Shown one piece after another: positions 23,252 to 43,769 of a stretch of DNA of 64,000 bases. Location of the stretch: contig NZ_CP080269.1 of the NCBI RefSeq assembly GCF_019431355.1, positions 1,426,001-1,490,000 on the forward strand, given 5' to 3'. How positions within the stretch are numbered: the stretch's first letter is position 1; each line of letters starts with the position of its first letter. A program made the position numbers and the translations under genes. The notes below the pieces were generated by a model. That model was not told the DNA's origin and did not search any database. It was given only the letters and a program-made list of their open reading frames with translations. This DNA comes from Paenibacillus sp. R14(2021). GTDB taxonomy: Bacteria; Bacillota; Bacilli; Paenibacillales; Paenibacillaceae.

Positions 23252-24844
23252 TCAGCATCTGTCATAGATTGCGCGAAAAACAGGCTGAAAACCGCTTTCA
23301 AGCAGCTTCTTCCACCTCGGATGCAGCGTTGCCCACTTGCCTGACCACATATAATCGGCCCATTCGTCCCCAGGCAGCAGCGGTATCGAGCAAACGGGCT
23401 TCACAGGAAGCATCGCCAGCCATTCACTGCGGGCGCGGAACTTAGCGTCCTTGTTGGCGATCCAATACGTGCTTCTGCCAGCGCGTTCCCGTTCGCCGCT
23501 AATGCGTTTCATCGTCGACATGCGATGGAGCGTCCACTTCGATGGGAAGGGATCGGCGACTACAATAAGCAGGTCGCAATGAATGAGCTGCAGCTCCGTA
23601 TCCGGATGCATCCAATGGCTGGAAACGTCGGTGATTCGAATCGGCGCCTCGATCGACTGCAGCATGAAGCGGTGCTTCAGCTGCTGCTCCGCTTCCAAAG
23701 CGGCGATGGCTACAGTGGCCGGATCCAGCATGTACCAATCCAAGCGCTTGGAGGGCGACGCCATGCACAGGTACCTTCGGTCTGCCGCTGCTTGAGCAGG
23801 CGTTCCAGGGCGATGATTCGCCTCCGGAACCAGCGCATGCCATTCCGGCTCCAGGTCAGGATGCTCGATGGCTGCAATGCTTCGATCCCCTTGCTGCTCG
23901 AGAAGACGTGCAAGTGTTATCGCTGTGAATGTAGCGCCGGCGCCGGGCGATAATGCGGCCACCATGACATGCTGTTTGCGCGCCTGCCGCGGCGGGTTGT
24001 TCTCGGAGGATCGTGCTGGGAAGTGCAGCGTACCTTCGGTACCTAGCAGACAAGCGCCCAATGCATTGCCTGCATCCTCCATCGTATTAAACCGGCGGGC
24101 AGGGACGGGGTCCGTCATCCGGCCAATGATGTCGAGGCAAGCGCGGGCAACGGAATTGCGATCCGGCAATCCCGTCATCATCCCATTGCCCGATAAGCGG
24201 TTCCCGCCGCTCATCAAATAATAAAGCAAGGCGCCAAGCCCGAACACATCCGTTCTGGCATCGCTCTGGCGGTCGCCCTCCTGCTCGGGAGCCGCGAAGC
24301 CCGGCGTACCCAGCGTAATCGTATCCTGTGCTTGCCCGAATTTATATTGGCGGGCTATCCCGAAGTCAATCAGCCGAACGAAGCCGCTGCGGTCAATCAT
24401 GACATTCGTGGGCTTCAAATCCCGGTGAATAATAGGGGGCTGCTGCTGATGCAGGTAACGAAGCGCATCCGCAAGCTGCACGCCGATCTCAAGCGTCTGC
24501 TCCGCCGTAATGAAGCCGCCTTGCTGCGCCAAATAGTCCTGCAGCGTGATCCCGTCAATATAGTCCATGACAAGGAGTTCGAGTCCGCCGTCGTCCGCAG
24601 CCGGAAAATAATCCACGATCAACGGCAAATGCGGATGGTTAAGCCGCATGAGCAGGCCCGCCTCTTCTGCACTGCGAAGCCCGTTCCCTTGAAATGGCCG
24701 ATTCACCTTGAGGGCACGGAGCTTCCCGTGCAGCCGAAGATCCTCCGCTGCGTAAACTTCGCCCATGCCTCCTCTTCCGATCAGCCTGCTGATGCGATAA
24801 CGTTCGCCGACCACCATGCCGCTTTCAAATTGCGCCTGACTCAT
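23252..24844 (-). CDS. Hanks-type Ser/Thr kinase fused to a ParA/MinD-like domain
   Basis: A 530-residue soluble protein. Residues 15-265 are a protein kinase: glycine loop GRGGMGEV (23-30), ATP lysine 46, HRDLKPTN with catalytic Asp142, DFG at 160, activation segment TLGTPGFAAPE. After a linker, residues 290-530 resemble a deviant-Walker ATPase (MVAALSPGAGATFTAITLARLLEQQG), but the P-loop lysine is replaced by alanine (Ala304), as in CpaE/TadZ-like proteins. There are no PASTA repeats or membrane segment, unlike PrkC. GGAGG precedes the ATG. The role is unknown. Confidence 0.87.
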   Translation of the reverse strand: MSQAQFESGMVVGERYRISRLIGRGGMGEVYAAEDLRLHGKLRALKVNRPFQGNGLRSAEEAGLLMRLNHPHLPLIVDYFPAADDGGLELLVMDYIDGITLQDYLAQQGGFITAEQTLEIGVQLADALRYLHQQQPPIIHRDLKPTNVMIDRSGFVRLIDFGIARQYKFGQAQDTITLGTPGFAAPEQEGDRQSDARTDVFGLGALLYYLMSGGNRLSGNGMMTGLPDRNSVARACLDIIGRMTDPVPARRFNTMEDAGNALGACLLGTEGTLHFPARSSENNPPRQARKQHVMVAALSPGAGATFTAITLARLLEQQGDRSIAAIEHPDLEPEWHALVPEANHRPGTPAQAAADRRYLCMASPSKRLDWYMLDPATVAIAALEAEQQLKHRFMLQSIEAPIRITDVSSHWMHPDTELQLIHCDLLIVVADPFPSKWTLHRMSTMKRISGERERAGRSTYWIANKDAKFRARSEWLAMLPVKPVCSIPLLPGDEWADYMWSGKWATLHPRWKKLLESGFQPVFRAIYDRC

Positions 24845-24866
24845 AAATTCAGCCTCCTCTAGACGG

Positions 24867-24916
24867 CAAAAAGCACCCCGAACGAGCAGACGAACTCTCT
24901 GCTCCTTCGGGATGCT
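24867..24916 (-). terminator. Terminator of the eight-gene mrf repair unit
   Basis: On the minus strand, GCATCCCGAAGGAGCAGA and TCTGCTCGTTCGGGGTGC pair over 18 positions with few mismatches and a seven-base loop, followed by TTTTTG. It lies 20 bases after the last gene of the unit. Confidence 0.88.
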
Positions 24917-24934
24917 TTCCCGTTTCGTGTAATT

Positions 24935-25954
24935 CTAATTATTCTTCACCAAGTATAGCGTAATTTCGTCGCGATTGTGAAACAATTGTTTGGCCTTCTT
25001 CAGCTGGAACGACGATTCCAGCCTCGCGATAACATCCCGGATCGTCTGAAGCGGCTTCTTGTGCATCAGTTTAATCGTTATGATTGCCGTCGCCCCATCC
25101 CGCAGCGCATCCGTCTTCTCCAGTACGAGCTTCGCCATCTGCATAGGACTCCAGCTCATATCGCAGACAAGCAGATCGAACGTCCCCGGAGGGAATTTAA
25201 CGTCCGAAGCATTCTTCTTCATCGCCGTCAGCCTTGGATATGCCTTAAGCGAGGGGTGCAGATCGGCGGGATCCACCGAGGTAACGCGAAGGCCGCGCTC
25301 TAAGAGCAAGTGCGTCCAACCGCCCGGCGCCGCGCCAATATCGAGCGCTTCGCGAAACTCTTCCAAGTACAGCTTGAATGCCCGCTCCGCTTCCAGCAGC
25401 TTGAATTTGGCTCTTGAAATCTGCCCCTCTTCGCGTTGAAAGCGTATCGCGCCGCCCGGCCAGTCGGACAATTGCTCGGCTGGCGTTCCCCAGCCGACGT
25501 ACAGCTCGTCCACGCCGGCGAAGATGGACAATATTTGCTCCGGCGACTGCATCGTCGTTTCCGACCCTAGCTCCATAATGACGGCATCCAGCACCGATTT
25601 GGTGTCCGCAGCCGAATACGGAAAGCGCGTACCCTCCACGCGACGATAATGAACGGCCGTCGTTACGTTCTCGCAGCGCATTCTTGCATGGCGCACCAAA
25701 TCGGACAACGCCTGCAGATCGTCCGCATTGCCTTGAATCGGCAAGATGCGGTCAATCGGCTGTATATGCCGCAGAAATATCGGTTCGTTGCGCTGCAGCA
25801 AATCCAGCATATCCTCGCGACTCAGCGGAACCTCGATCCGGAACACTTCACCAGCCGTGAGCTGTGTAATTTTAATGCCATTAATCACTCTGCGAAGCTC
25901 TTCCATCGCAAGCGAAGCGAAGCCTCGGTTCGCGGTTCCAATCCATTCTGTCAC
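24935..25954 (-). CDS. FtsJ/RlmM-like SAM-dependent RNA methyltransferase
   Basis: A 339-residue predicted rRNA 2'-O-methyltransferase. The Rossmann motif ALDIGAAPGGWTHLLLERG is characteristic of the FtsJ/RrmJ superfamily, and the K-D-K-E tetrad is visible as SRAKFKLLEAE, LLVCDMSWSP, ITIKLMHK and DEITLYLV. About 200 residues precede the catalytic domain, as in RlmM. I chose GTG at 25954 because AGGAGG lies 9 bases upstream; it overlaps the ABC stop (GTGA). Last gene of the mrf unit; its link to repair is only positional. Confidence 0.87.
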   Translation of the reverse strand: MTEWIGTANRGFASLAMEELRRVINGIKITQLTAGEVFRIEVPLSREDMLDLLQRNEPIFLRHIQPIDRILPIQGNADDLQALSDLVRHARMRCENVTTAVHYRRVEGTRFPYSAADTKSVLDAVIMELGSETTMQSPEQILSIFAGVDELYVGWGTPAEQLSDWPGGAIRFQREEGQISRAKFKLLEAERAFKLYLEEFREALDIGAAPGGWTHLLLERGLRVTSVDPADLHPSLKAYPRLTAMKKNASDVKFPPGTFDLLVCDMSWSPMQMAKLVLEKTDALRDGATAIITIKLMHKKPLQTIRDVIARLESSFQLKKAKQLFHNRDEITLYLVKNN

Positions 25955-26733
25955 TGCGTTCTTCCTCCTGGTAGTGCCCGAATCCACGGACGATCATCTG
26001 CCCAATTGACTTCAACCGGCCAATCGTAAGCGCGGCTCAGCCAATCCGGGCTTAATACTTCTTTCTTCGGCCCTGCCGCTACGATCTCGCCGTCCTGCAC
26101 GAGCGCGACATGGGTAAAGAGCGGAATGATTTCTTCCATATGATGCGTGACGTAGACCACCATCATATCTCGCTCGCTGAGACGGCCGAGATCAATCAGG
26201 AGATTCTCGCGCTCGTACAGGTCAAGACCCGCGCAAGGTTCATCCATAATGAGCACCTTCGGACTCAGCATAAGCGCGCGGGCGAGCAGCACTTTCTTCC
26301 GTTCGCCCTGCGACAACGAGCCCAGTGTCTGCTCTGCGGTGTGGAGCAGCCCCGCCTCTTCAAGCAGCCGCAGCGCCTTCAGCCGCACGGCCTCGTCGAT
26401 CGTTTGATAGAAGCGCAGGAAGGCATATTCCCCGGTCGCCACAACCTCCCAAACAGGGTCGCGCAGCGTGAGCTTCTCCATGACAGCCTGGCTGATGTAG
26501 CCGATTTCCTTGCGCACCTCGCGAACGTCGCATTCGCCGTAACGGTTGCCGAGCACGTCGACGGTACCGGAGGTCGGGAATTCGTAGCCTGTCATCATTT
26601 CAAGCAAGGTCGTCTTCCCGCATCCGTTGCGGCCTAGAATAACCCAGTGCTCGCCTTTGTTCATTTGCAGATTAACGCCATTAAGTATTTGCCGCTCACC
26701 GCGTCTAAACGTGATGTTTTGCATCGTAATCAT
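25951..26733 (-). CDS. ABC transporter-type ATP-binding protein (YlmA-like)
   Basis: A 260-residue single ABC domain: Walker A ILGRNGCGKTTLLEMMTG, signature LGSLSQGERKKVLLARAL, Walker B VLIMDEPCAGLDLYERENLL, H-loop VYVTHHMEEIIP. No permease gene is next to it, so it is an orphan ATPase resembling B. subtilis YlmA. AGGAGG lies before the ATG. It sits between the cyclic-phosphate receiver gene and the FtsJ-like gene in the repair unit; a role outside transport is possible but unproven. Confidence 0.9.
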   Translation of the reverse strand: MITMQNITFRRGERQILNGVNLQMNKGEHWVILGRNGCGKTTLLEMMTGYEFPTSGTVDVLGNRYGECDVREVRKEIGYISQAVMEKLTLRDPVWEVVATGEYAFLRFYQTIDEAVRLKALRLLEEAGLLHTAEQTLGSLSQGERKKVLLARALMLSPKVLIMDEPCAGLDLYERENLLIDLGRLSERDMMVVYVTHHMEEIIPLFTHVALVQDGEIVAAGPKKEVLSPDWLSRAYDWPVEVNWADDRPWIRALPGGRTQ

Positions 26734-26751
26734 GACATTTCCCCTCCTATG

Positions 26752-27060
26752 TCATTCCAGCTGCATCGGCCCATGATGAATGACGACTTCCGGCGGCGCG
26801 TGCTGGGTCATCAGATGAATCATGCTCATTCTGCCGGCTGCACTGGAGGTGTGAAAATAACAGCTGCGCGGATATCGCCCGCTGTCCACGATATACTGCA
26901 CGACCGCAAGCCCGTTCGGCTGCTCCCAGCCAAGGTCGAAATCAAGCGATAGAACGTCGACCTCTTCATCCTTCAAGAGCAGGATGCATTCCGCTGCCGA
27001 CCGCGCCAGTACGAAGCCTTTTGGACATGGCCGGAAATCGTCCAAATACACATTAATCAT
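26752..27060 (-). CDS. Cyclic-phosphate-processing receiver-domain (cREC) protein
   Basis: A 102-residue stand-alone domain. MINVYLDDFRPCPKGFVLARSA and VDVLSLDFDLGWEQPNG are the characteristic LDDxRPxPxG and LSLDxDLG blocks of the cyclic-phosphate processing receiver family, predicted from genomic context in the literature to act on cyclic-phosphate or damaged nucleic-acid ends. A conserved-looking HTSS lies in YFHTSSAAGRMSM. It starts inside the last codons of nfo (8-base overlap), indicating coupling to the AP endonuclease. The biochemical activity is not established. Confidence 0.8.
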   Translation of the reverse strand: MINVYLDDFRPCPKGFVLARSAAECILLLKDEEVDVLSLDFDLGWEQPNGLAVVQYIVDSGRYPRSCYFHTSSAAGRMSMIHLMTQHAPPEVVIHHGPMQLE

Positions 27061-27898
27061 GAGCCGCTTGGCCTCCCATCCGCCGAATCTGATCCAGCTG
27101 TCCCTTATGCGTACCCTCGTTCCCCGAAGGCGTTTCCAATACAAACGGGACCTGCGCAAGCCGCGGATGCCGAAGCAGCCAGCTGAAGCCCGCCTCACCG
27201 ATAAACCCCTCTCCGATGACCGCATGCCGGTCGCGCTTCTCGCCGCTTGGATAGACCGAGTCGTTCAAATGAACCGCCGCGAGATGGTCGATAACGCCCA
27301 GCGCGATCGCCTTATCCATCCATTCAGCTTCAGGCCGCCCATCCCACACGCCGCTTGCGAACAAATGGCAGGTGTCGAGGCAGAAGCCGATCTTATGTGC
27401 GTCCGTGCAAAGGCCGCGGATTTGCGCGAGTTCTTCCATCGTCGTTCCCATGAACGTGTGCTCGCCCGCCTGATTCTCAATCAGCAGCTTCGCCCGCCCA
27501 TGCCACTGTTTCGCAACAGCGCTCAGCGTCAGCACGCTATTACGGTATCCTTCGAGCGGATCAGGCCCTTTATAAACGCCAAAATGAACGACGACGCCAA
27601 GCGAACCGCACGCTTCTGCGATTTCGAGGTCATTGAGCAGCGAAGACACCGTTCTGGCGCGATGCCCGGCGTCCTCTGCCGCGATGTTGGTCGGATACGG
27701 CGAATGTGCGATCGAGACGATGCCATGCTCGTCGCAGTACTGCGCGCAGCGGCCGGCCTCGCTTCGATCGAAAGCTTTGACCAACAAGCTGCGAGGGTTT
27801 TTCGGAAAATACTGAAAGGCTTCGGCACCGTACGCCGCAGCCCTCCGGGCCGCTTCGCGGTAGCCGCCCCGCGTGGAAACATGAACGCCCGCACGCAT
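27053..27898 (-). CDS. nfo: Endonuclease IV (AP endonuclease)
   Basis: A zinc-dependent enzyme that cuts abasic DNA and trims blocked 3' ends. The 281-residue TIM barrel shows the metal ligands in order: HSPYPTN, VVVHFGVYKG, LLIENQAGEH, FCLDTCHLFASG, AVHLNDS, HAVIGEGFIG, FVLETPSGNEG. Length is standard. Six bases separate it from the upstream glycosylase gene, so lesion removal and AP-site cleavage are co-expressed. The downstream cREC gene overlaps its end. Confidence 0.95.
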   Translation of the reverse strand: MRAGVHVSTRGGYREAARRAAAYGAEAFQYFPKNPRSLLVKAFDRSEAGRCAQYCDEHGIVSIAHSPYPTNIAAEDAGHRARTVSSLLNDLEIAEACGSLGVVVHFGVYKGPDPLEGYRNSVLTLSAVAKQWHGRAKLLIENQAGEHTFMGTTMEELAQIRGLCTDAHKIGFCLDTCHLFASGVWDGRPEAEWMDKAIALGVIDHLAAVHLNDSVYPSGEKRDRHAVIGEGFIGEAGFSWLLRHPRLAQVPFVLETPSGNEGTHKGQLDQIRRMGGQAAHD

Positions 27899-27904
27899 CG
27901 TGTT

Positions 27905-28744
27905 TTACCGGTCCTTCTGGCAGGTCGGGCAATAAAACATTTTGCGTGAATTGATCTCCGTCTGCACGATCGTGCCGCCGCAATTCAAGCAAGGCTCGCC
28001 TCCGCGGTCGTATACGCGGCAGTTATCGTTATAGCCGCCGGTTACTGTATCGTCATTCGTCAGCGGCAGCTCCATGTAACCGCCTTGAGCTTCGGCATCA
28101 GCGAGCACACTATGCATCGCGTGATAAAGCCGTTCCCATGTCTCTGGCTCAATATCGGCAATCCGGGCATCCGGCCGCACCCTTGCTTCAAACGCAATTT
28201 CATCAGAATAACAGTTCCCAATGCCGGCAATGACCTTTTGATCCACCAGAGCGGTTTTGAGCGAGCCGCGCTTTCCTTTGAACCGCTCCTTGAACTTCTC
28301 AAGCGTCAGCCATTTATCGAACGGCTCCGGTCCGAGATCAGCAAGCTGCGAGATCGCTTCCTTCACAGTCAGCAAATGCAAATAACCGAGCCGCAGGCCG
28401 ATGAAGCACAGCTCTCCCTGCGGGAAACCGATCGACACCTGCACGGAGCGTTCCGGTCGTTCCTGCGGCTGGCCATCCGGAGTCAAATCGCGGGATTCGT
28501 AGCGGATTAGGCCGCCGAGCATCAGGTGCAGCAGCAGCCGTTTCCCGTTGTCGAGATGGAAGAGCAGCATTTTGCCGCGCCGCTCGACGAACCAAACCGT
28601 ACGGCCGATCAATTCCTCTTGGAATGTCTCCTCCGGAACGTTGATCGATTTAGGTCTTGTTACTATGACGTCTGTGATGGGCTGGCCGGAGATGCGCTCC
28701 GCCAGCAGCTTGCGATAATGTTCCATTTCCGGATATTCCGGCAT
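27905..28744 (-). CDS. Fpg/Nei-family DNA glycosylase
   Basis: A bifunctional glycosylase/lyase that removes oxidised bases. The N terminus MPEYPEME keeps the catalytic proline and glutamate, though canonical MutM reads MPELPEVE. The H2TH segment is VIAGIGNCYSDEIAFEARVRPD, and the C-terminal zinc finger has two Cys pairs (CLNCGG and YCPTCQ) with SRK in place of the usual GR. The 279 residues are normal length, but the divergent motifs suggest a second Fpg-like paralogue and not the main mutM usually next to polA. It lies in the mrf repair unit, before nfo. Confidence 0.88.
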   Translation of the reverse strand: MPEYPEMEHYRKLLAERISGQPITDVIVTRPKSINVPEETFQEELIGRTVWFVERRGKMLLFHLDNGKRLLLHLMLGGLIRYESRDLTPDGQPQERPERSVQVSIGFPQGELCFIGLRLGYLHLLTVKEAISQLADLGPEPFDKWLTLEKFKERFKGKRGSLKTALVDQKVIAGIGNCYSDEIAFEARVRPDARIADIEPETWERLYHAMHSVLADAEAQGGYMELPLTNDDTVTGGYNDNCRVYDRGGEPCLNCGGTIVQTEINSRKMFYCPTCQKDR

Positions 28745-28760
28745 ACGTGCAACTTCCTTC

Positions 28761-29579
28761 CTATCGGCGCTGCCTCTGCTGGGCCAGCTGATTCCCTATG
28801 TATTCCTGCAGCTGCGGTAAGGTGTCGATGACGACATCCGCTTCGCAGTTTGCTGCAGCAAGAAGCTCTTTATAATTGTCGCCCGTTGCAAGCCCTGTTA
28901 ATACAAGCACAGAGAGACAACCTGCGGCTAGTCCTGCCGCAATGTCGGTCGCCGGATTATCGCCAACCACCCACGTCTCCTCCGGCGCAAGGCCAAGCCG
29001 CTTCAAAGCGACATCCATCAAGATTGTCGAGGGCTTGCCGATGACGACCGGCTGAACGCCAGATGATGCCTGAAGCATCGCTGAAATCGAGCCTGCGCCC
29101 GGAATCAGCCCATGCTCCGATGGCAGCAGCCGATCCGGATTCGTCAATATGTAACGTGCCCCGCTCCGGATGTGCGCAGCGGCAGCGGCTAGTTTATCGT
29201 AGGTCAGCTCGCGATCGATGCCTTGAACGACAACGTCAGGCTGATCTGTTTCCAAGTTGAGTCCAGCCTCTTGAATCGCTTCGCGCAGTCCGGCCTCGCC
29301 GATGACATGCACGTTAGCGCCGGGCATCTGCTCCGCGAGATAAGCGGCGGCGCCTTGGGCGGATGTTACGACATCGTCCGGCCTCGCCGGGATCCCCATG
29401 CCGCGCAGCCGCTCTGCCACCACTTCAGGTGAAGCTGAGGAATTGTTCGTTACGAATAAATAGCGAAGACCTTCCCGCTGCAGCATGCGAACCAGCTCGT
29501 CTGCACCGGGTATCATAATGCCGCCGTGGTACAGCGTACCATCCAAATCAATGAGCAAACCGCGAATGCCCGTCCCCAT
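28761..29579 (-). CDS. HAD-superfamily phosphatase (NagD-like)
   Basis: A 272-residue phosphatase with all four HAD motifs: LIDLDGTLYHG (nucleophile aspartate), FVTNNSSAS, VIGKPSTI with the lysine, and WVVGDNPATDIAAG. The cap type places it in the NagD/PGP-like subgroup, which dephosphorylates sugar or nucleotide phosphates or glycolate phosphate. It follows mrfB by 6 bases. Within a repair unit it could remove phosphate from excision products, but that is an inference from position. Confidence 0.9.
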   Translation of the reverse strand: MGTGIRGLLIDLDGTLYHGGIMIPGADELVRMLQREGLRYLFVTNNSSASPEVVAERLRGMGIPARPDDVVTSAQGAAAYLAEQMPGANVHVIGEAGLREAIQEAGLNLETDQPDVVVQGIDRELTYDKLAAAAAHIRSGARYILTNPDRLLPSEHGLIPGAGSISAMLQASSGVQPVVIGKPSTILMDVALKRLGLAPEETWVVGDNPATDIAAGLAAGCLSVLVLTGLATGDNYKELLAAANCEADVVIDTLPQLQEYIGNQLAQQRQRR

Positions 29580-29585
29580 GACCGT

Positions 29586-30926
29586 TCACTCCTTCGATCT
29601 TTTCATCTGCAACCGGTTGATCCGTTTGCGGATGCCTTCCAATATCGCACGGCGCTTCGCCTCAAGCCGCACTCCGGCATGACGGCGCGCCGCGATTTCA
29701 AATGCCTGCTCGGCTAAAGCGAGCGCCTGATCGAACGCTTTCGTCCGATGCTCGTAATACATGGCCAGCTCGATATGGGCCTCATATTCCGGCCAAGCCG
29801 CTTCTTCCGCCGCTTGAACAGCCTTCTGCCACAATAACACAGCACGATGCCAATTTCCACATTTCTTGTCGCGCTCGGCCAGCAGGCACAGGCATTTCAC
29901 CGTTGGCCTCGGATGCTCGGCGAACAGCGCGTACAGCGGCTCGGCCAAGTCCCCTTTGCCCATCTTCTCCAGCCAGAGTCCCGTTCGCAGAAGCTCTTCG
30001 GCTTCTGCAGGCAGCGGAATGGCTGAGCCAACCCCGCCGCCTAGAAAATGCCCGAAGCGGATCGCCAGTGCGGCTAAGGAGAGCATATCGATCTCGTTAT
30101 GCCGAAATACGCCAAGCAGCGGACCAGGGTCTCCGTCGGACAAATATTGAAAATAAATGGCTGGTGCGAGCGATCCCGGCACATCCTCGCTGCGCGTAAT
30201 GCCAAGCCGTTCTTCTTCGACATGGCTCAGCTTGCAAGAGACAAGTGTATTGCGCCACACGGAACGAGACGGATGGAGCAGGTCGATGTGCACGGGCTCC
30301 CAATTGAAATTTCGGTATCCATTCAGAATAAAACGATTATATAAGACAGGCCAATCGAACGTACGCCCGTTATACGTGACGAGATGCGTGAAGCTCGGCA
30401 GCATCCCGCACAAATAAGCGATCATCGCCCGCTCCTCTGCCGGATGTCGAATCAGCATCTGTTCCACGACGAAAACCTCATCCTCCACGTACGCGAGCCC
30501 AACCATAAATGGTACGTTGCCAGCCCCAACGCCAAGACCGGTCGTTTCCAAATCGAGAAAGAGCACATTAGACACCTCGCGGAAAGCGCTGGTCTGCTTG
30601 TCGAAGGCAGCAAGCGAAGGCTGCGTACCCGGCAGCTCGGCAAGCTGATGGATTCCATGCCGATGCGAAAACGGATACCGGCTCTCGCGGACGAGAAACA
30701 TGCCTTCCGCCGATTCGACGAGGCGGACGCCGAGCGCATCCCATTCGGGCGGGAGACCGGATGCGGATGCTGCTGCCGGCAGTTCGTCTGCCGCATCGGA
30801 TGCATTTGCAGCGCTAGCGCCATCGTCTTTGATCTCCTCCGGCTGCTCCACCATACCCGCCAAGCGCTCCGCCTGCGCGGTTTGCTGCGCCCGCATCCGA
30901 AGGAGGCGATCTCTAAGCCCGCTCAC
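29586..30926 (-). CDS. mrfB: RNase H-like exonuclease MrfB (YprB)
   Basis: A metal-dependent exonuclease partner of the MrfA helicase, known in B. subtilis for excising mitomycin-C adducts. The 446 residues include a DEDD-type exonuclease core: VLFLDLETTGLGVGAGNVPFMVGLA, THLVTYNGRTFDWPVLYNRF and RHNEIDMLSLAALAIRFG provide the acidic residues. The C-terminal ~120 residues are helical TPR-like repeats. I chose GTG at 30926, which overlaps the mrfA stop (GTGA). The N-terminal Ala/Glu-rich stretch precedes the catalytic domain. Confidence 0.92.
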   Translation of the reverse strand: MSGLRDRLLRMRAQQTAQAERLAGMVEQPEEIKDDGASAANASDAADELPAAASASGLPPEWDALGVRLVESAEGMFLVRESRYPFSHRHGIHQLAELPGTQPSLAAFDKQTSAFREVSNVLFLDLETTGLGVGAGNVPFMVGLAYVEDEVFVVEQMLIRHPAEERAMIAYLCGMLPSFTHLVTYNGRTFDWPVLYNRFILNGYRNFNWEPVHIDLLHPSRSVWRNTLVSCKLSHVEEERLGITRSEDVPGSLAPAIYFQYLSDGDPGPLLGVFRHNEIDMLSLAALAIRFGHFLGGGVGSAIPLPAEAEELLRTGLWLEKMGKGDLAEPLYALFAEHPRPTVKCLCLLAERDKKCGNWHRAVLLWQKAVQAAEEAAWPEYEAHIELAMYYEHRTKAFDQALALAEQAFEIAARRHAGVRLEAKRRAILEGIRKRINRLQMKRSKE

Positions 30927-33208
30927 GACTGTGCGCTCGCTTCCTCGATCAAATCCATCGCGAGCGACTTGCCGAGCAGCCCGACCTCTTCGATTGGACC
31001 TACGCAAGCCGGACAGCCGCTCAGGCAGGTGCAGCTGCGGATGAGTGATTTTGCCTGCTGCAGCAGTTTGTCGTGCACCTCGTACAACCGCTCGCTTAAG
31101 CCGATGCCGCCCGGATAGCGGTCATAGAAATAAATCGTCGGAAGCTTGGAATGAACGGCCTTCACCTGCGGCACGACGCGAATATCCATAGGGTCACACA
31201 TCAGGTAGAGCGGCGCGATATGCACGAGTACGTTGGAGAGTCCAAGGAGCGCCTGCTGCATGTCGTTCGTGCTCTTGCGGGCGGCGGCTGCCTCGCTGAA
31301 GGAGAACCAGTAGCTGCTCGTATGCAGCTCTTCCTCCGGCAAATGAATAGGGCCGCTGCCGATATTCTCGTGCGTCCGCAAGCGTATTTTCTTAAACAAG
31401 GTCGCTTTGGCATTGACCGTCACCTCGCCGTATTGGCGCAGCAGATCGCCGCTCTCCCTCTCCTTGTCCACATGCAGCACTTTCAGCTCGACAGCCATGT
31501 TCGCATCCGTAAAATAGTCCACGTCGACTTCGCGCACGAATGCCTTCTTCTCGTGGTAGTCCAGCTTCTCCACTTGATACTGCACGCCTTCATGGATATA
31601 GATCGCCTCTTCGTGAATAAGCGTCGGCGCGCTGAAGCGGTCGACCTCGCCGAGCACGCGGCTGCCCTCCGTCATGTCGACGATGACGAAATTCTCCTGC
31701 GCGGCTGAGCGCAGTGAGATGCCGTGAGCCGGGAAGGACTGCTCCATCCAATACCAGCGGTTATTAACATGGTGCAGCACCTTCTCCTCCGTCAGAAATT
31801 CCAGCATATGCTCAAGCGGCTCGTCGCCGAACTTCTCGTCCCGCTCGAACGGAAGCTCGTAAGCCGCGCATTTGACATGATCGATCATGATCAGCAGATT
31901 ATCGGGATGAATCAGCGCCCGCTCCGGCGGCTGGTTGAAGAAGAAATCCGGGTTCTGGATCATGTATTGATCCAGCGGATTGCTGCTCGCGACAAGAAAG
32001 GTCACCGAGGTGCCTTGACGACGGCCGGCGCGCCCGGACTGCTGCCAGGTGCTAGCGATGGAGCCGGGGTATCCGTTCATCACGCAGGCCTGCAATTGTC
32101 CGATATCGATGCCAAGCTCCAGCGCGTTCGTACTGACGACGCCGCGAATCTCGCCGCTGCGCAGGCCGCGCTCGATTTCGCGCCGCAGCTTGGGCAGGTA
32201 ACCGCCGCGGTAGCCGCGGATCGTCTTCGTGCCAAGCTCGTTCTTCACGAGCTCCTGCAGGTACGTGAGCAGCAGCTCCACCCGAACGCGGCTGCGCGCG
32301 AACACGATCGTCTGCACGCCTTGGCGCAGCAGAAGACCCGCCAGCTTCTGCGTCTCGAGCACGCTGCTGCGGCGGATGCCCAGCTGCTTATTGACGACAG
32401 GCGGATTGTAGCAGACGAAGTGCTTCTCGCCCATCGGAGCGCCGTTGTTGTCAACCAACGCGACAGACTCGCCTAATAGTCGCTCCGCGTGCTCGCGAGG
32501 GTTGTCGATCGTCGCCGAGGCGCAGATGAACTGCGGATTAGAGCCGTAGAATCGGCAAATCCGCTTCAGGCGCCGAAGAACATTTGCCACATGGCTGCCG
32601 AATACACCTCGATACGAGTGCAGCTCATCGATGACGATGTACTTGATATTTTCGAACAGCTTGACCCATTTCGTATGATGCGGCAGGATCGCCGAATGCA
32701 GCATGTCGGGATTCGTTACGACGATATGCCCGGCATTTCGCACGACAGTCCGAACCGTCGGCGGCGTATCACCGTCATAGGTGCTTGTTTTCAAATCGAC
32801 ATCCATGGCCGCCGCAAGCTCCTGCAGCTCGGCAACCTGATCCTGCGCCAGCGCCTTCGTCGGAAATAAATAGAGCGCCCGTCCGCTTTCGTTCTCGAGC
32901 AGCGATTGCAGCACCGGCAGGTTGTAGCACATCGTCTTTCCCGATGCCGTCGGCGTGACGGCGACGACGTTCTTGCCTGCCCTTACAGCAAGGTAGGCTT
33001 CCGCTTGGTGTACGAACAGCTTGCCGATGCCGCGGCCAGCCAGCGCCTCCTTCAGCTTGGGGTTCAGCTCGGCCGGCATTTCGACCGTCCGCGCTTCTCT
33101 TGCAGGAATCGTGTGCCAATGGGTCACGTTGTCCATGATGTCCTTATTCTCTCGCAGCAGTTCCAGCCACTCTTCCAAGCCGGATGCTTTGCCCGTCCAA
33201 CGGTTCAA
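30923..33208 (-). CDS. mrfA: DEAD/DEAH-box helicase MrfA (YprA)
   Basis: A 3'-5' superfamily-2 helicase that works with MrfB in a UvrABC-independent excision pathway in B. subtilis. Helicase motifs are AVTPTASGKTMCY (Walker A), IVIDELHSYRG, CASATI, and QQSGRAGRRQGTS; the C-terminal DUF1998-like region contains four clustered cysteines (CTCLSGCPACVG). I chose TTG at 33208 (761 residues) because GGGGGAG lies just upstream, and because the -10/-35 promoter at 33247-33275 overlaps the only upstream ATGs. First gene of the eight-gene unit. Confidence 0.94.
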   Translation of the reverse strand: MNRWTGKASGLEEWLELLRENKDIMDNVTHWHTIPAREARTVEMPAELNPKLKEALAGRGIGKLFVHQAEAYLAVRAGKNVVAVTPTASGKTMCYNLPVLQSLLENESGRALYLFPTKALAQDQVAELQELAAAMDVDLKTSTYDGDTPPTVRTVVRNAGHIVVTNPDMLHSAILPHHTKWVKLFENIKYIVIDELHSYRGVFGSHVANVLRRLKRICRFYGSNPQFICASATIDNPREHAERLLGESVALVDNNGAPMGEKHFVCYNPPVVNKQLGIRRSSVLETQKLAGLLLRQGVQTIVFARSRVRVELLLTYLQELVKNELGTKTIRGYRGGYLPKLRREIERGLRSGEIRGVVSTNALELGIDIGQLQACVMNGYPGSIASTWQQSGRAGRRQGTSVTFLVASSNPLDQYMIQNPDFFFNQPPERALIHPDNLLIMIDHVKCAAYELPFERDEKFGDEPLEHMLEFLTEEKVLHHVNNRWYWMEQSFPAHGISLRSAAQENFVIVDMTEGSRVLGEVDRFSAPTLIHEEAIYIHEGVQYQVEKLDYHEKKAFVREVDVDYFTDANMAVELKVLHVDKERESGDLLRQYGEVTVNAKATLFKKIRLRTHENIGSGPIHLPEEELHTSSYWFSFSEAAAARKSTNDMQQALLGLSNVLVHIAPLYLMCDPMDIRVVPQVKAVHSKLPTIYFYDRYPGGIGLSERLYEVHDKLLQQAKSLIRSCTCLSGCPACVGPIEEVGLLGKSLAMDLIEEASAQS

Positions 33209-33246
33209 GGTCTCTCCCCCTATCCTGTCTATGAATCTATCTTCCC

Positions 33247-33275
33247 ATTGTACAGAATGCATGTTCGGTCTGCAA
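33247..33275 (-). promoter_or_regulatory. mrfA promoter with an embedded LexA-like box
   Basis: Minus strand: -35 TTGCAG (33270-33275), 17-base spacer, -10 TACAAT (33247-33252). The spacer contains CGAACATGCATTCT (33254-33267), matching the Gram-positive SOS box CGAAC-N4-GTTCG at all but one core base. An operator at this place would block RNA polymerase directly. Confidence 0.65.
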
Positions 33276-33315
33276 TTCCCGATAACCGCCTGGAAAATCA
33301 TTCATACGCGCATGT

Positions 33316-33366
33316 AAAAAGCCTGCTGAACGCGTCTCCCTTGGAAACGCAGCTTCAGCAGGCTTA
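33316..33366 (-). terminator. Terminator after the YfhP-like gene
   Basis: A 12-bp perfect stem, AAGCCTGCTGAA/TTCAGCAGGCTT, followed by TTTTTAC on the minus strand, between the YfhP-like gene and the mrfA promoter. Confidence 0.85.
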
Positions 33367-33389
33367 TGTGCGGCCCTGCACGGTAACGA

Positions 33390-42971: not shown

Positions 42972-42985
42972 CAAACGTTTGTTCT
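42972..42985. promoter_or_regulatory. LexA-like box 1
   Basis: CAAACGTTTGTTCT: a weaker match to CGAAC-N4-GTTCG (one core mismatch), just upstream of yneA and downstream of its -10. Confidence 0.5.
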
Positions 42986-43000
42986 GTACTCGATGAATCC

Positions 43001-43030
43001 AGAATAACACGAACATCCGTTTGCAGTCAA
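43001..43030 (-). promoter_or_regulatory. yneA promoter containing LexA box 2
   Basis: Minus strand: -35 TTGACT (43025-43030), 18-base spacer, -10 TATTCT (43001-43006). The box CGAACATCCGTTTG (43010-43023, read on the plus strand) lies wholly inside the spacer. Confidence 0.7.
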
Positions 43031-43038
43031 CACATTTT

Positions 43039-43052
43039 AGAACGTTTGTTCG
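43039..43052. promoter_or_regulatory. LexA box 3
   Basis: AGAACGTTTGTTCG: perfect GAAC-N4-GTTC core, midway between the two divergent promoters. Confidence 0.8.
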
Positions 43053-43062
43053 CAGAAAAATG

Positions 43063-43076
43063 CGAACTTGTGTTTC
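43063..43076. promoter_or_regulatory. LexA box 4
   Basis: CGAACTTGTGTTTC: one core mismatch (GTTT for GTTC), upstream of the lexA -35. Confidence 0.6.
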
Positions 43077-43077
43077 T

Positions 43078-43091
43078 CGAACTTATGTTTG
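43078..43091. promoter_or_regulatory. LexA box 5, overlapping the lexA -35
   Basis: CGAACTTATGTTTG: one core mismatch; its end overlaps the -35 element at 43089-43094. Confidence 0.65.
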
Positions 43092-43117
43092 TACGAACTC
43101 CGGTTCTGTGTTATAAT
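43089..43117 (+). promoter_or_regulatory. lexA promoter containing LexA box 6
   Basis: -35 TTGTAC (43089-43094), 17-base spacer, -10 TATAAT (43112-43117). CGAACTCCGGTTCT (43094-43107), with a perfect GAAC-N4-GTTC core, fills most of the spacer: classic autorepression. Confidence 0.85.
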
Positions 43118-43148
43118 TTGACACAAATGAAACGATGGAGTGATTCCG

Positions 43149-43769
43149 GTGTCGAAACTTTCAAACCGCCAGCAGGCGATACTAGAATTCATTAAGACGG
43201 AAGTTCGCGAGAAAGGTTACCCGCCTTCCGTTCGTGAGATCGGTGAAGCTGTCGGACTGGCATCAAGTTCAACGGTTCACGGCCACCTGGACCGTTTAGA
43301 GAAGAAGGGCCTCATTCGCCGCGACCCTACGAAGCCTCGCGCAATCGAAATCTTAGATGGAGAAGACAATGAAATTCCATTCCCCCTCTCCATCGCTAAG
43401 GTGCCTGTTGTAGGTAAAGTAACCGCCGGCGTCCCGATTACGGCGACAGAGAATATCGAGGATTACTTCCCTCTTCCAGCAGATAAAGTCGGCGACGATA
43501 CTGTCTTCATCCTTAACGTCATGGGTGAGAGTATGATCGAGGCCGGCATCCATGACGGAGATTATGTCATCGTTCGCCAGCAGCAGAATGCGACCAACGG
43601 CGATATCGTTGTTGCCATGACGGAGGACGACGAAGCTACCGTCAAGACCTTCTATAAGGAGAAGGATCACATTCGCCTGCAGCCGGAGAACGCAACGATG
43701 GAGCCAATTCGCCTCCGCAACGTTACGATTCTCGGCAAAGTCATCGGCCTCTTCCGCGATATCCACTAA
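43149..43769 (+). CDS. lexA: SOS response transcriptional repressor LexA
   Basis: Represses DNA-damage genes until RecA-stimulated self-cleavage. The 206 residues show an N-terminal winged helix ([23 protein letters not shown]), the Ala93-Gly94 cleavage site in VTAGVPI, and the Ser128 (MGESMIEAG) / Lys166 (EATVKTFY) catalytic dyad. I chose GTG at 43149 with GGAG 8 bases upstream. Divergent from yneA; the shared intergenic region holds six LexA-type boxes. Confidence 0.97.

Follow-up and report, generated by a model that had tools for sequence, protein, structure and literature searches.

A conserved operon of Paenibacillus and its order that joins mrfAB to second copies of base-excision genes, probably under LexA control

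An eight-gene operon

The genome of Paenibacillus sp. R14(2021), 5.98 Mb in one contig, contains a compact run of eight genes, half of which encode known kinds of DNA-repair enzyme. They lie on the minus strand of the 64,000-nucleotide stretch analyzed here ('the window') in the order mrfA, mrfB, a HAD phosphatase gene, fpg2, nfo2, the gene for a cyclic-phosphate-processing receiver domain (cREC), an ABC ATPase gene, and the gene for an RlmM-like methyltransferase (rlmM below). The features of the unit, in window coordinates, are:

33247..33275, minus strand: promoter, TTGCAG (33275-33270), 17-base spacer and TACAAT (33252-33247); read by eye
33254..33267, minus strand: LexA-type box CGAACATGCATTCT, in the promoter spacer, one base ahead of the -10; from matrix and relatives
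30923..33208, minus strand: mrfA, helicase with DEAD, Helicase_C, HRQ1-type winged-helix and MZB domains; TTG start from relatives
29586..30926, minus strand: mrfB, RNase_H_2 exonuclease; GTG start at 30926, GTGA overlap with the mrfA stop
28761..29579, minus strand: HAD-IIA phosphatase, TIGR01457; 268.5 bits against a cut-off of 247.65
27905..28744, minus strand: fpg2, second Fpg/Nei-family glycosylase; domain and profile matches
27053..27898, minus strand: nfo2, second endonuclease IV, TIGR00587; profile match
26752..27060, minus strand: cREC, 102 amino acids, ATG at 27060; 96.7 bits against a cut-off of 27
25951..26733, minus strand: ABC ATPase, with no permease gene in the operon; domain and profile matches
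24935..25954, minus strand: RlmM-like FtsJ methyltransferase; GTG at 25954 behind AGGAGG, GTGA overlap with the ABC stop
24863..24923, minus strand: intrinsic terminator 3' of the operon; -41.7 kcal/mol, z -7.7, 0 of 200 shuffles as good
33308..33375, minus strand: folded stretch upstream of the mrfA promoter, holding the terminator-like hairpin, with T-run, of the preceding unit; z -4.8, 1 of 200 shuffles as good

Gene calls and domain matches agree on the identity, strand, order and range of all eight genes, as an earlier sequence-only reading of the window had claimed. The tight packing in that reading also holds: with refined starts the junctions from mrfA through rlmM measure -4, 6, 16, 6, -8, 18 and -4 bases, that is, overlaps of 4 to 8 bases and gaps of 6 to 18. 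The mrfA start, TTG 33208, aligns with the ATG of relatives that have the same type of mrfA. Overlaps of 85 bases (mrfA-mrfB) and 37 bases (ABC-rlmM) in the window's open frames reflect start codons placed too early, and are likely 4 bases each. The terminator expected after the last gene is present, and a further hairpin stands upstream of the promoter; with terminators on either side the unit is, by its layout, an operon. The 'one clear promoter' fared less well. It can be read by eye, but it agrees with the consensus at just 8 of 12 bases and is absent from the list produced by a consensus scan, in which promoter-like and terminator-like sites occur at chance level (7 versus 5.6, and 10 versus 11.7, respectively).

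Gene identities

MrfA matches DEAD, Helicase_C and MZB at 124.4, 59 and 79.1 bits, each above its cut-off. MrfB is assigned from its RNase_H_2 domain and from the adjoining mrfA gene. Fpg2 belongs to the Fpg/Nei superfamily—its Fapy N-terminal domain, H2TH and zinc finger all exceed Pfam cut-offs—and at 194.0 and 185.2 bits it falls below the NCBIfam fpg equivalog cut-offs of 212 and 203.3. The same genome has a separate MutM-type gene whose product is 36% identical to Fpg2. Nfo2 scores 178 bits against the TIGR00587 cut-off of 129.65. All 59 genomes searched, this one included, have a match to Nfo2; 53 of them have one of at least 45% identity plus another of about 30%, and the remaining six have only the latter. 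Both Nfo2 and Fpg2 are thus additional to ordinary copies in their own genome. The HAD protein, above the cut-off for TIGR01457, also has sub-threshold matches to phosphoglycolate phosphatases. The RlmM-like protein has an FtsJ domain above the Pfam cut-off, and its residues 72-346 match the RlmM structure 4atn (E 7.1e-12); as a whole it scores 102.1 bits, under the NF008734 RlmM equivalog cut-off of 176.

Many columns are conserved in alignments of nfo (72 sequences), fpg (68), rlmM (64), ABC (64), HAD (50) and cREC (75, part of them from outside the operon), and they include the expected catalytic ones. In Fpg2 we take the latter to be the catalytic N-terminus and the hairpin lysine; in Nfo2 we take the H, E and D columns, by eye, to be metal ligands.

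Conservation of the gene order

Gene order was read in 73 loci, the window included, from the window's family and other families of its order. They were selected by means of nfo or cREC, and many of them are closely related. Among them nfo is present in 72, fpg in 68, cREC in 67, rlmM in 63, ABC in 62, mrfB in 54, mrfA in 53, HAD in 49 and a thioredoxin-family gene (trx) in 10; PK, a gene for a Ser/Thr protein kinase that follows the operon terminator at 23252-24844 in the window, is present in 65. The pairs found side by side most often are fpg-nfo (66), mrfA-mrfB (53), ABC-rlmM (52), HAD-fpg (49) and cREC-ABC (48), followed by mrfB-HAD (33) and mrfB-fpg (16); nfo and cREC adjoin in 66 of the 67 loci that have cREC. 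The core is fpg-nfo-cREC, with mrfAB usually ahead of it and ABC and rlmM usually after; outside the window's family, HAD occurs in L070 only. At one locus, L080, fpg has been relocated ahead of mrfA, still within the cluster. Many of the order's genomes, then, have a tightly packed unit in which MrfAB is combined with a second glycosylase of the Fpg family and a second endonuclease IV, and the possibility that would have undone the sequence-only reading, an order peculiar to one strain, falls away because the unit recurs so widely.

Several loci stand outside the 73: cREC copies away from the cluster (L119, L120, L122, L234, L235, L240, L243), weak profile matches (L126-L128), Nfo2 relatives without an adjoining fpg or cREC (L045-L048, L045 being broken by a contig end), and L242, where cREC is accompanied by HAD and fpg matches and the gene table is empty.

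Other genes join the cluster in places. In other genera the operon has an additional gene, after cREC (or nfo) and before ABC (or rlmM), for a thioredoxin-family protein that is about 105 residues long and carries a CGTC motif; it is present in L061, L062, L066, L067, L069, L070, L121 and L123-L125. A gene that by eye resembles Gfo/Idh-type oxidoreductases lies between mrfB and HAD at 12 loci (L040, L042-L044, L051-L053, L055, L058, L059, L068 and L070).

A LexA-type box at the mrfA promoter

LexA operators were sought with a matrix of 164 boxes from 31 distinct lexA upstream regions, the boxes being chosen with the Bacillus subtilis LexA consensus. The window's own lexA (near 43150; interval 42972-43150), with six LexA boxes upstream, is among them. 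Among 1205 dinucleotide shuffles the 99% point is 11.43, which serves as the cut-off, and first-order resamples attain 11.35 or 11.43 in 1.1% of 1080 cases. Of 54 regions upstream of mrfA, 200 bases each, 51 score at least 11.35 and 40 exceed 11.43; the three that fall short are L071 (10.4), L239 (10.3) and L055, whose box is at -288. Scores above 11.43 are found upstream of HAD in 0 of 50 regions, fpg 0 of 68, nfo 0 of 72, ABC 0 of 63, rlmM 0 of 64 and cREC 1 of 71, and likewise upstream of rnz (0 of 52), YdjM (0 of 20) and ABCF (0 of 17). When the threshold is lowered to 10.3, HAD, rlmM, rnz and ABCF each gain one match. At loci that lack mrfA, no box above 11.43 precedes HAD, fpg or nfo, the top score being 10.6.

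In many loci the box stands a single base ahead of the -10. Three relatives (L169, L173, L180) have boxes of the type CGAACNNNNATTCT before lexA as well, and the half-site ATTCT of the mrfA box occurs in three of the 164 lexA-derived boxes. A second allele of mrfA, described below, has a box such as CGAACAGATATTCG before the -10, or GGAACAATCGTTCT directly after it. In other families of the class, 99 of 200 genomes have an mrfA match, and of 29 mrfA loci given from these, 18 have a box above 11.43. The LexA-type boxes in these other families (L245-L273) often take the form CGAACRTYYATTCG about 29 bases ahead of mrfA. Four CGAACRTATATTCG sites were read in the Paenibacillus genome itself, and one of these is about 20 bases before a gene that, judged from its sequence, resembles a Y-family polymerase. 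At mrfA, then, the box overlaps the promoter and is kept in relatives; the operon is probably induced with the SOS response through it, which would link the unit to DNA damage. The sequence-only reading had not noticed this box.

Proposed function

On balance we favor the view that this is a conserved operon of the order, probably SOS-switched, in which MrfAB is joined by second copies of base-excision enzymes. Co-expression of the DNA-repair genes is well supported. Upon damage, LexA would leave the mrfA promoter; MrfAB would take out bulky adducts, Fpg2 would excise oxidized bases, with blocked 3' ends remaining, and Nfo2 would incise abasic sites and trim 3'-phosphate or 3'-phosphoglycolate ends. 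HAD may destroy the 2-phosphoglycolate set free by this trimming, with Gph of Escherichia coli as a parallel, and it could equally be a small-molecule phosphatase. The role assigned to it by the sequence-only reading, handling the phosphate ends of DNA, is not supported, given that alternative and its presence in 49 of the 73 loci. The roles of HAD, ABC and the methyltransferase are ones that we infer; cREC and the RlmM-like enzyme would form an RNA-facing pair within this damage-induced unit.

A number of observations weigh against so unified a picture. The gene mrfB was not found in 13 of the 21 genomes searched for it, and 8 of these 13 keep the downstream module (L061, L062, L067, L069, L121, L123-L125): at seven of these loci HAD-fpg-nfo-cREC-thioredoxin-ABC-rlmM is uninterrupted, and L121 has the same genes minus nfo and ABC. 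Because the downstream module persists without mrfB, the modules do not need each other, and gene order resolves the operon into two separable ones, mrfAB and HAD-fpg2-nfo2-cREC-trx-ABC-rlmM. At L075, L081 and L084 a distance of 3.5 to 5.7 kb separates mrfB from nfo. Separate promoters for the later genes, which the sequence-only reading had named as fatal to it, are in part borne out in other genomes, where the downstream module stands without mrfAB and without a LexA-type box. The adjacency counts, moreover, are no blind sample, since the loci were gathered via nfo or cREC, nor are they independent, since many are closely related. Of the 29 best-scoring new loci found with the cREC profile, 20 are inside the operon and 9 are copies elsewhere. 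cREC is absent from 6 of the 73 loci and rlmM from 10, each lost independently. And rlmM adjoins PK in 55 of the 73, although PK is beyond the terminator; since PK is syntenic too, the order is partly upheld by general synteny.

The evidence for LexA has its own weak points. The window's box, CGAACATGCATTCT, scores 11.4, slightly below the cut-off. Scores above 11.43 also occur before PK (6 of 68) and mrfB (7 of 48), in what we judge to be coding sequence: the PK matches are one shared palindrome 140-199 bases upstream, which in the window is inside the end of the rlmM-like gene, and the mrfB matches all lie 87 bases ahead of a start placed too early, hence within mrfA; we count neither set as operators. 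The other three CGAACRTATATTCG sites are not before evident SOS genes, and in this genome the consensus, searched with one mismatch, shows no enrichment (75 and 76 sites, against 123 and 107 for the reversed control). The LexA argument therefore rests on position and conservation, not on sequence alone.

Two alleles of mrfA, which share about 60% identity and have within-type medians of 76-86% (27 compared), are seen across the window, L032-L088, L232, L238 and L239. Both occupy the head of the operon and both occur within the window's genus. Since the two share one site while mrfB shows no such split, mrfA was apparently displaced alone.

The alternative that survives best holds that most of this is inherited synteny: mrfAB would be one SOS unit and fpg-nfo another pair, with HAD, ABC, cREC and the methyltransferase co-transcribed without joint action. 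The separation of the two modules across loci, the syntenic PK (rlmM-PK, 55 of 73) and the Gfo/Idh-type insertions between mrfB and HAD at 12 loci all fit this, but the short junctions, the adjacency of fpg-nfo (66 of 73) and nfo-cREC (66 of 67), the fpg of L080 that moved and yet stayed inside the cluster, and the two mrfA alleles, in the same place and each with a LexA-type box in a differing layout, do not. We consider it improbable, but give it a modest chance of being right.

cREC and the RlmM-like methyltransferase

The cREC family, PF20274, is linked to 2',3'-cyclic RNA ends and NAD products, and its activity as a cyclic-phosphate phosphoesterase is a prediction, in the passages on it in PMC7824862. 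The operon protein has PF20274 above cut-off, a receiver-like fold and the conserved aspartates. Its predicted structure (pLDDT 95.9) shows one receiver domain and no other in the 102 residues; it resembles viral models named cREC with TM 0.67-0.76 and an unnamed viral model with 0.88, and matches receiver domains weakly (best E 1.6e-3). Of 198 genomes of the order, 172 have PF20274 above cut-off, against 12 of 398 in a phylum sample, 7 of them in the window's family, and 0 of 14 control genomes. cREC is thus not confined to NAD or cyclic-nucleotide systems, for 67 loci place it in a repair operon.

When 77 distinct operon copies are compared with 15 from elsewhere, D7, D8, R10, P13, G15, L39, D40 and H70 are invariant in both sets. 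Position 72 is serine in 100% of operon copies and in 0 elsewhere; position 73 is serine in 92% of operon copies, asparagine in 100% of the others. In a tree the operon copies cluster together, apart from the long-branched L076, a grouping compatible with one origin or with more than one. One genome (G033) has a second cREC, at L122, in what by eye is a phage-like cassette, next to open frames that resemble a polynucleotide kinase and a Thg1-like protein.

In 12 of 40 genomes of the genus to which G514 belongs, cREC and the RlmM-like enzyme form one protein, about 470 residues long, with the linker RNCKVPP or a near variant. One such fusion, scanned with Pfam, scores 96.1 bits for cREC and 66.7 for FtsJ, both above cut-off. 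The other 28 genomes give two separate matches, and all 18 of these with loci show separate parts. Equal frame lengths had suggested eight further fusions (G790, G793, G798, G804, G810, G811, G812, G818); we keep the count at the 12 one-piece matches because the five of the eight that have loci (L287, L299-L302) all carry an intervening stop. Fusion-like open frames around cREC in L080 (421) and L036 (325) were likewise rejected, the nfo frame stopping before or at cREC. A model of the fusion (pLDDT 79.7, pTM 0.44) fixes the domains and leaves their mutual arrangement loose, so we draw no conclusion from it.

The evidence on cREC is divided: its constant neighbor is nfo, and its fusion partner is an RNA-type methyltransferase. 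The sequence-only reading followed the neighbor, and had cREC and HAD work on DNA 3' ends made by Fpg, coupling bulky-adduct excision to clean-up. Nfo-family enzymes, though, already remove 3'-phosphates. Adjacency to nfo in 66 of 67 loci and the invariant receiver-type aspartates D7, D8 and D40 suit that idea, but cREC is modeled as a lone receiver domain, its sole physical link is to an RNA-type 2'-O-methyltransferase, and its neighborhoods, as far as PMC7824862 sets them out, are RNA and NAD systems. Physical joining and these published settings outweigh adjacency, in our view; that cREC trims DNA ends is not supported, and we regard the coupled model as unlikely.

Instead, cREC is most likely a phosphoesterase for 2',3'-cyclic or related phosphates that partners a 2'-O-ribose methyltransferase, and the fusion suggests that the unit may handle RNA besides DNA. 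Taken further, one LexA-switched operon might mend both: MrfAB, Fpg2 and Nfo2 would act on DNA, cREC would open 2',3'-cyclic (or similar) phosphate ends of damaged RNA, and the RlmM-like enzyme would methylate the 2'-OH there, the fusion doing both. Hen1 performs such an end-marking step in bacterial RNA repair, and offers an analogy. This extension is speculative, and we hold it to be doubtful.

Very improbable indeed is an anti-phage defense system based on a YprA-family helicase: relatives of MrfA act in DISARM, Dpd and Druantia (PMC12458937), and PADLOC gives matches for the helicase, ATPase and methyltransferase, but these are partial, five of the eight proteins have none at E 1e-5, MrfB-associated helicases belong to the repair branch of the family (PMC12458937, in its text on that branch), and cREC, above cut-off in 172 of the order's 198 genomes examined, is unlike a patchy defense system; we dropped this reading.

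Comparison with known systems

Among the papers listed by full-text searches of the open-licence literature, none came up with a description of the eight-gene operon, its LexA box, its membership of the SOS regulon, or the cREC-RlmM fusion. RlmM of E. coli is the 2'-O-methyltransferase of C2498 in 23S rRNA; the operon enzyme matches 4atn and the NCBIfam RlmM model, yet below the RlmM cut-off. In the SOS (LexA) regulon of Bacilli, the comparison is with lexA itself: an operator of the lexA-promoter type lies over the mrfA promoter here. Where mrfAB stands ahead of them, the second Fpg and endonuclease IV, together with an RNA-type methyltransferase, are predicted to join the SOS response. At L253, from another family of the class, a relative of endonuclease IV, 31% identical to Nfo2, is encoded divergently beside mrfA.

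MrfAB of B. subtilis is the same adjacent, co-oriented pair of helicase and DEDDh-type exonuclease genes. As presented in the text of PMC11194089 that bears on this, it is a pair whose further partners are unknown, and the paper closes by asking which partners work with MrfAB; here, the pair stands first in a longer operon that also has base-excision genes and a LexA-type box, and the operon supplies candidates. The repair branch of the YprA family also has MrfB adjoining MrfA, as here, with no conserved context beyond MrfB in what PMC12458937 relates of it, whereas here a longer context is kept in one order. Mammalian PGP, in the part of PMC5059750 concerned with it, is a phosphatase of HAD type, like the protein here, and its proposed substrate is phosphoglycolate released from the 3' ends of DNA; the HAD of the operon is a predicted phosphatase, and is absent from 24 of the 73 loci.

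The cREC of jumbo phages and of cellular systems shares with the operon protein PF20274, the receiver-like fold and the conserved aspartates. In the portions of PMC7824862 that treat the family, it belongs to NAD and cyclic-nucleotide systems only, RNA ligases included, has HTDN or HSAN where the operon protein has H-[TS]-S-S, and is described without the RlmM-like fusion, which occurs here in 12 genomes; in this order, by contrast, its gene is widespread on chromosomes, next to nfo and fpg. A domain so far predicted from phage conflict systems thereby gains a conserved cellular setting, and the fusion provides a single protein in which to seek its substrate.

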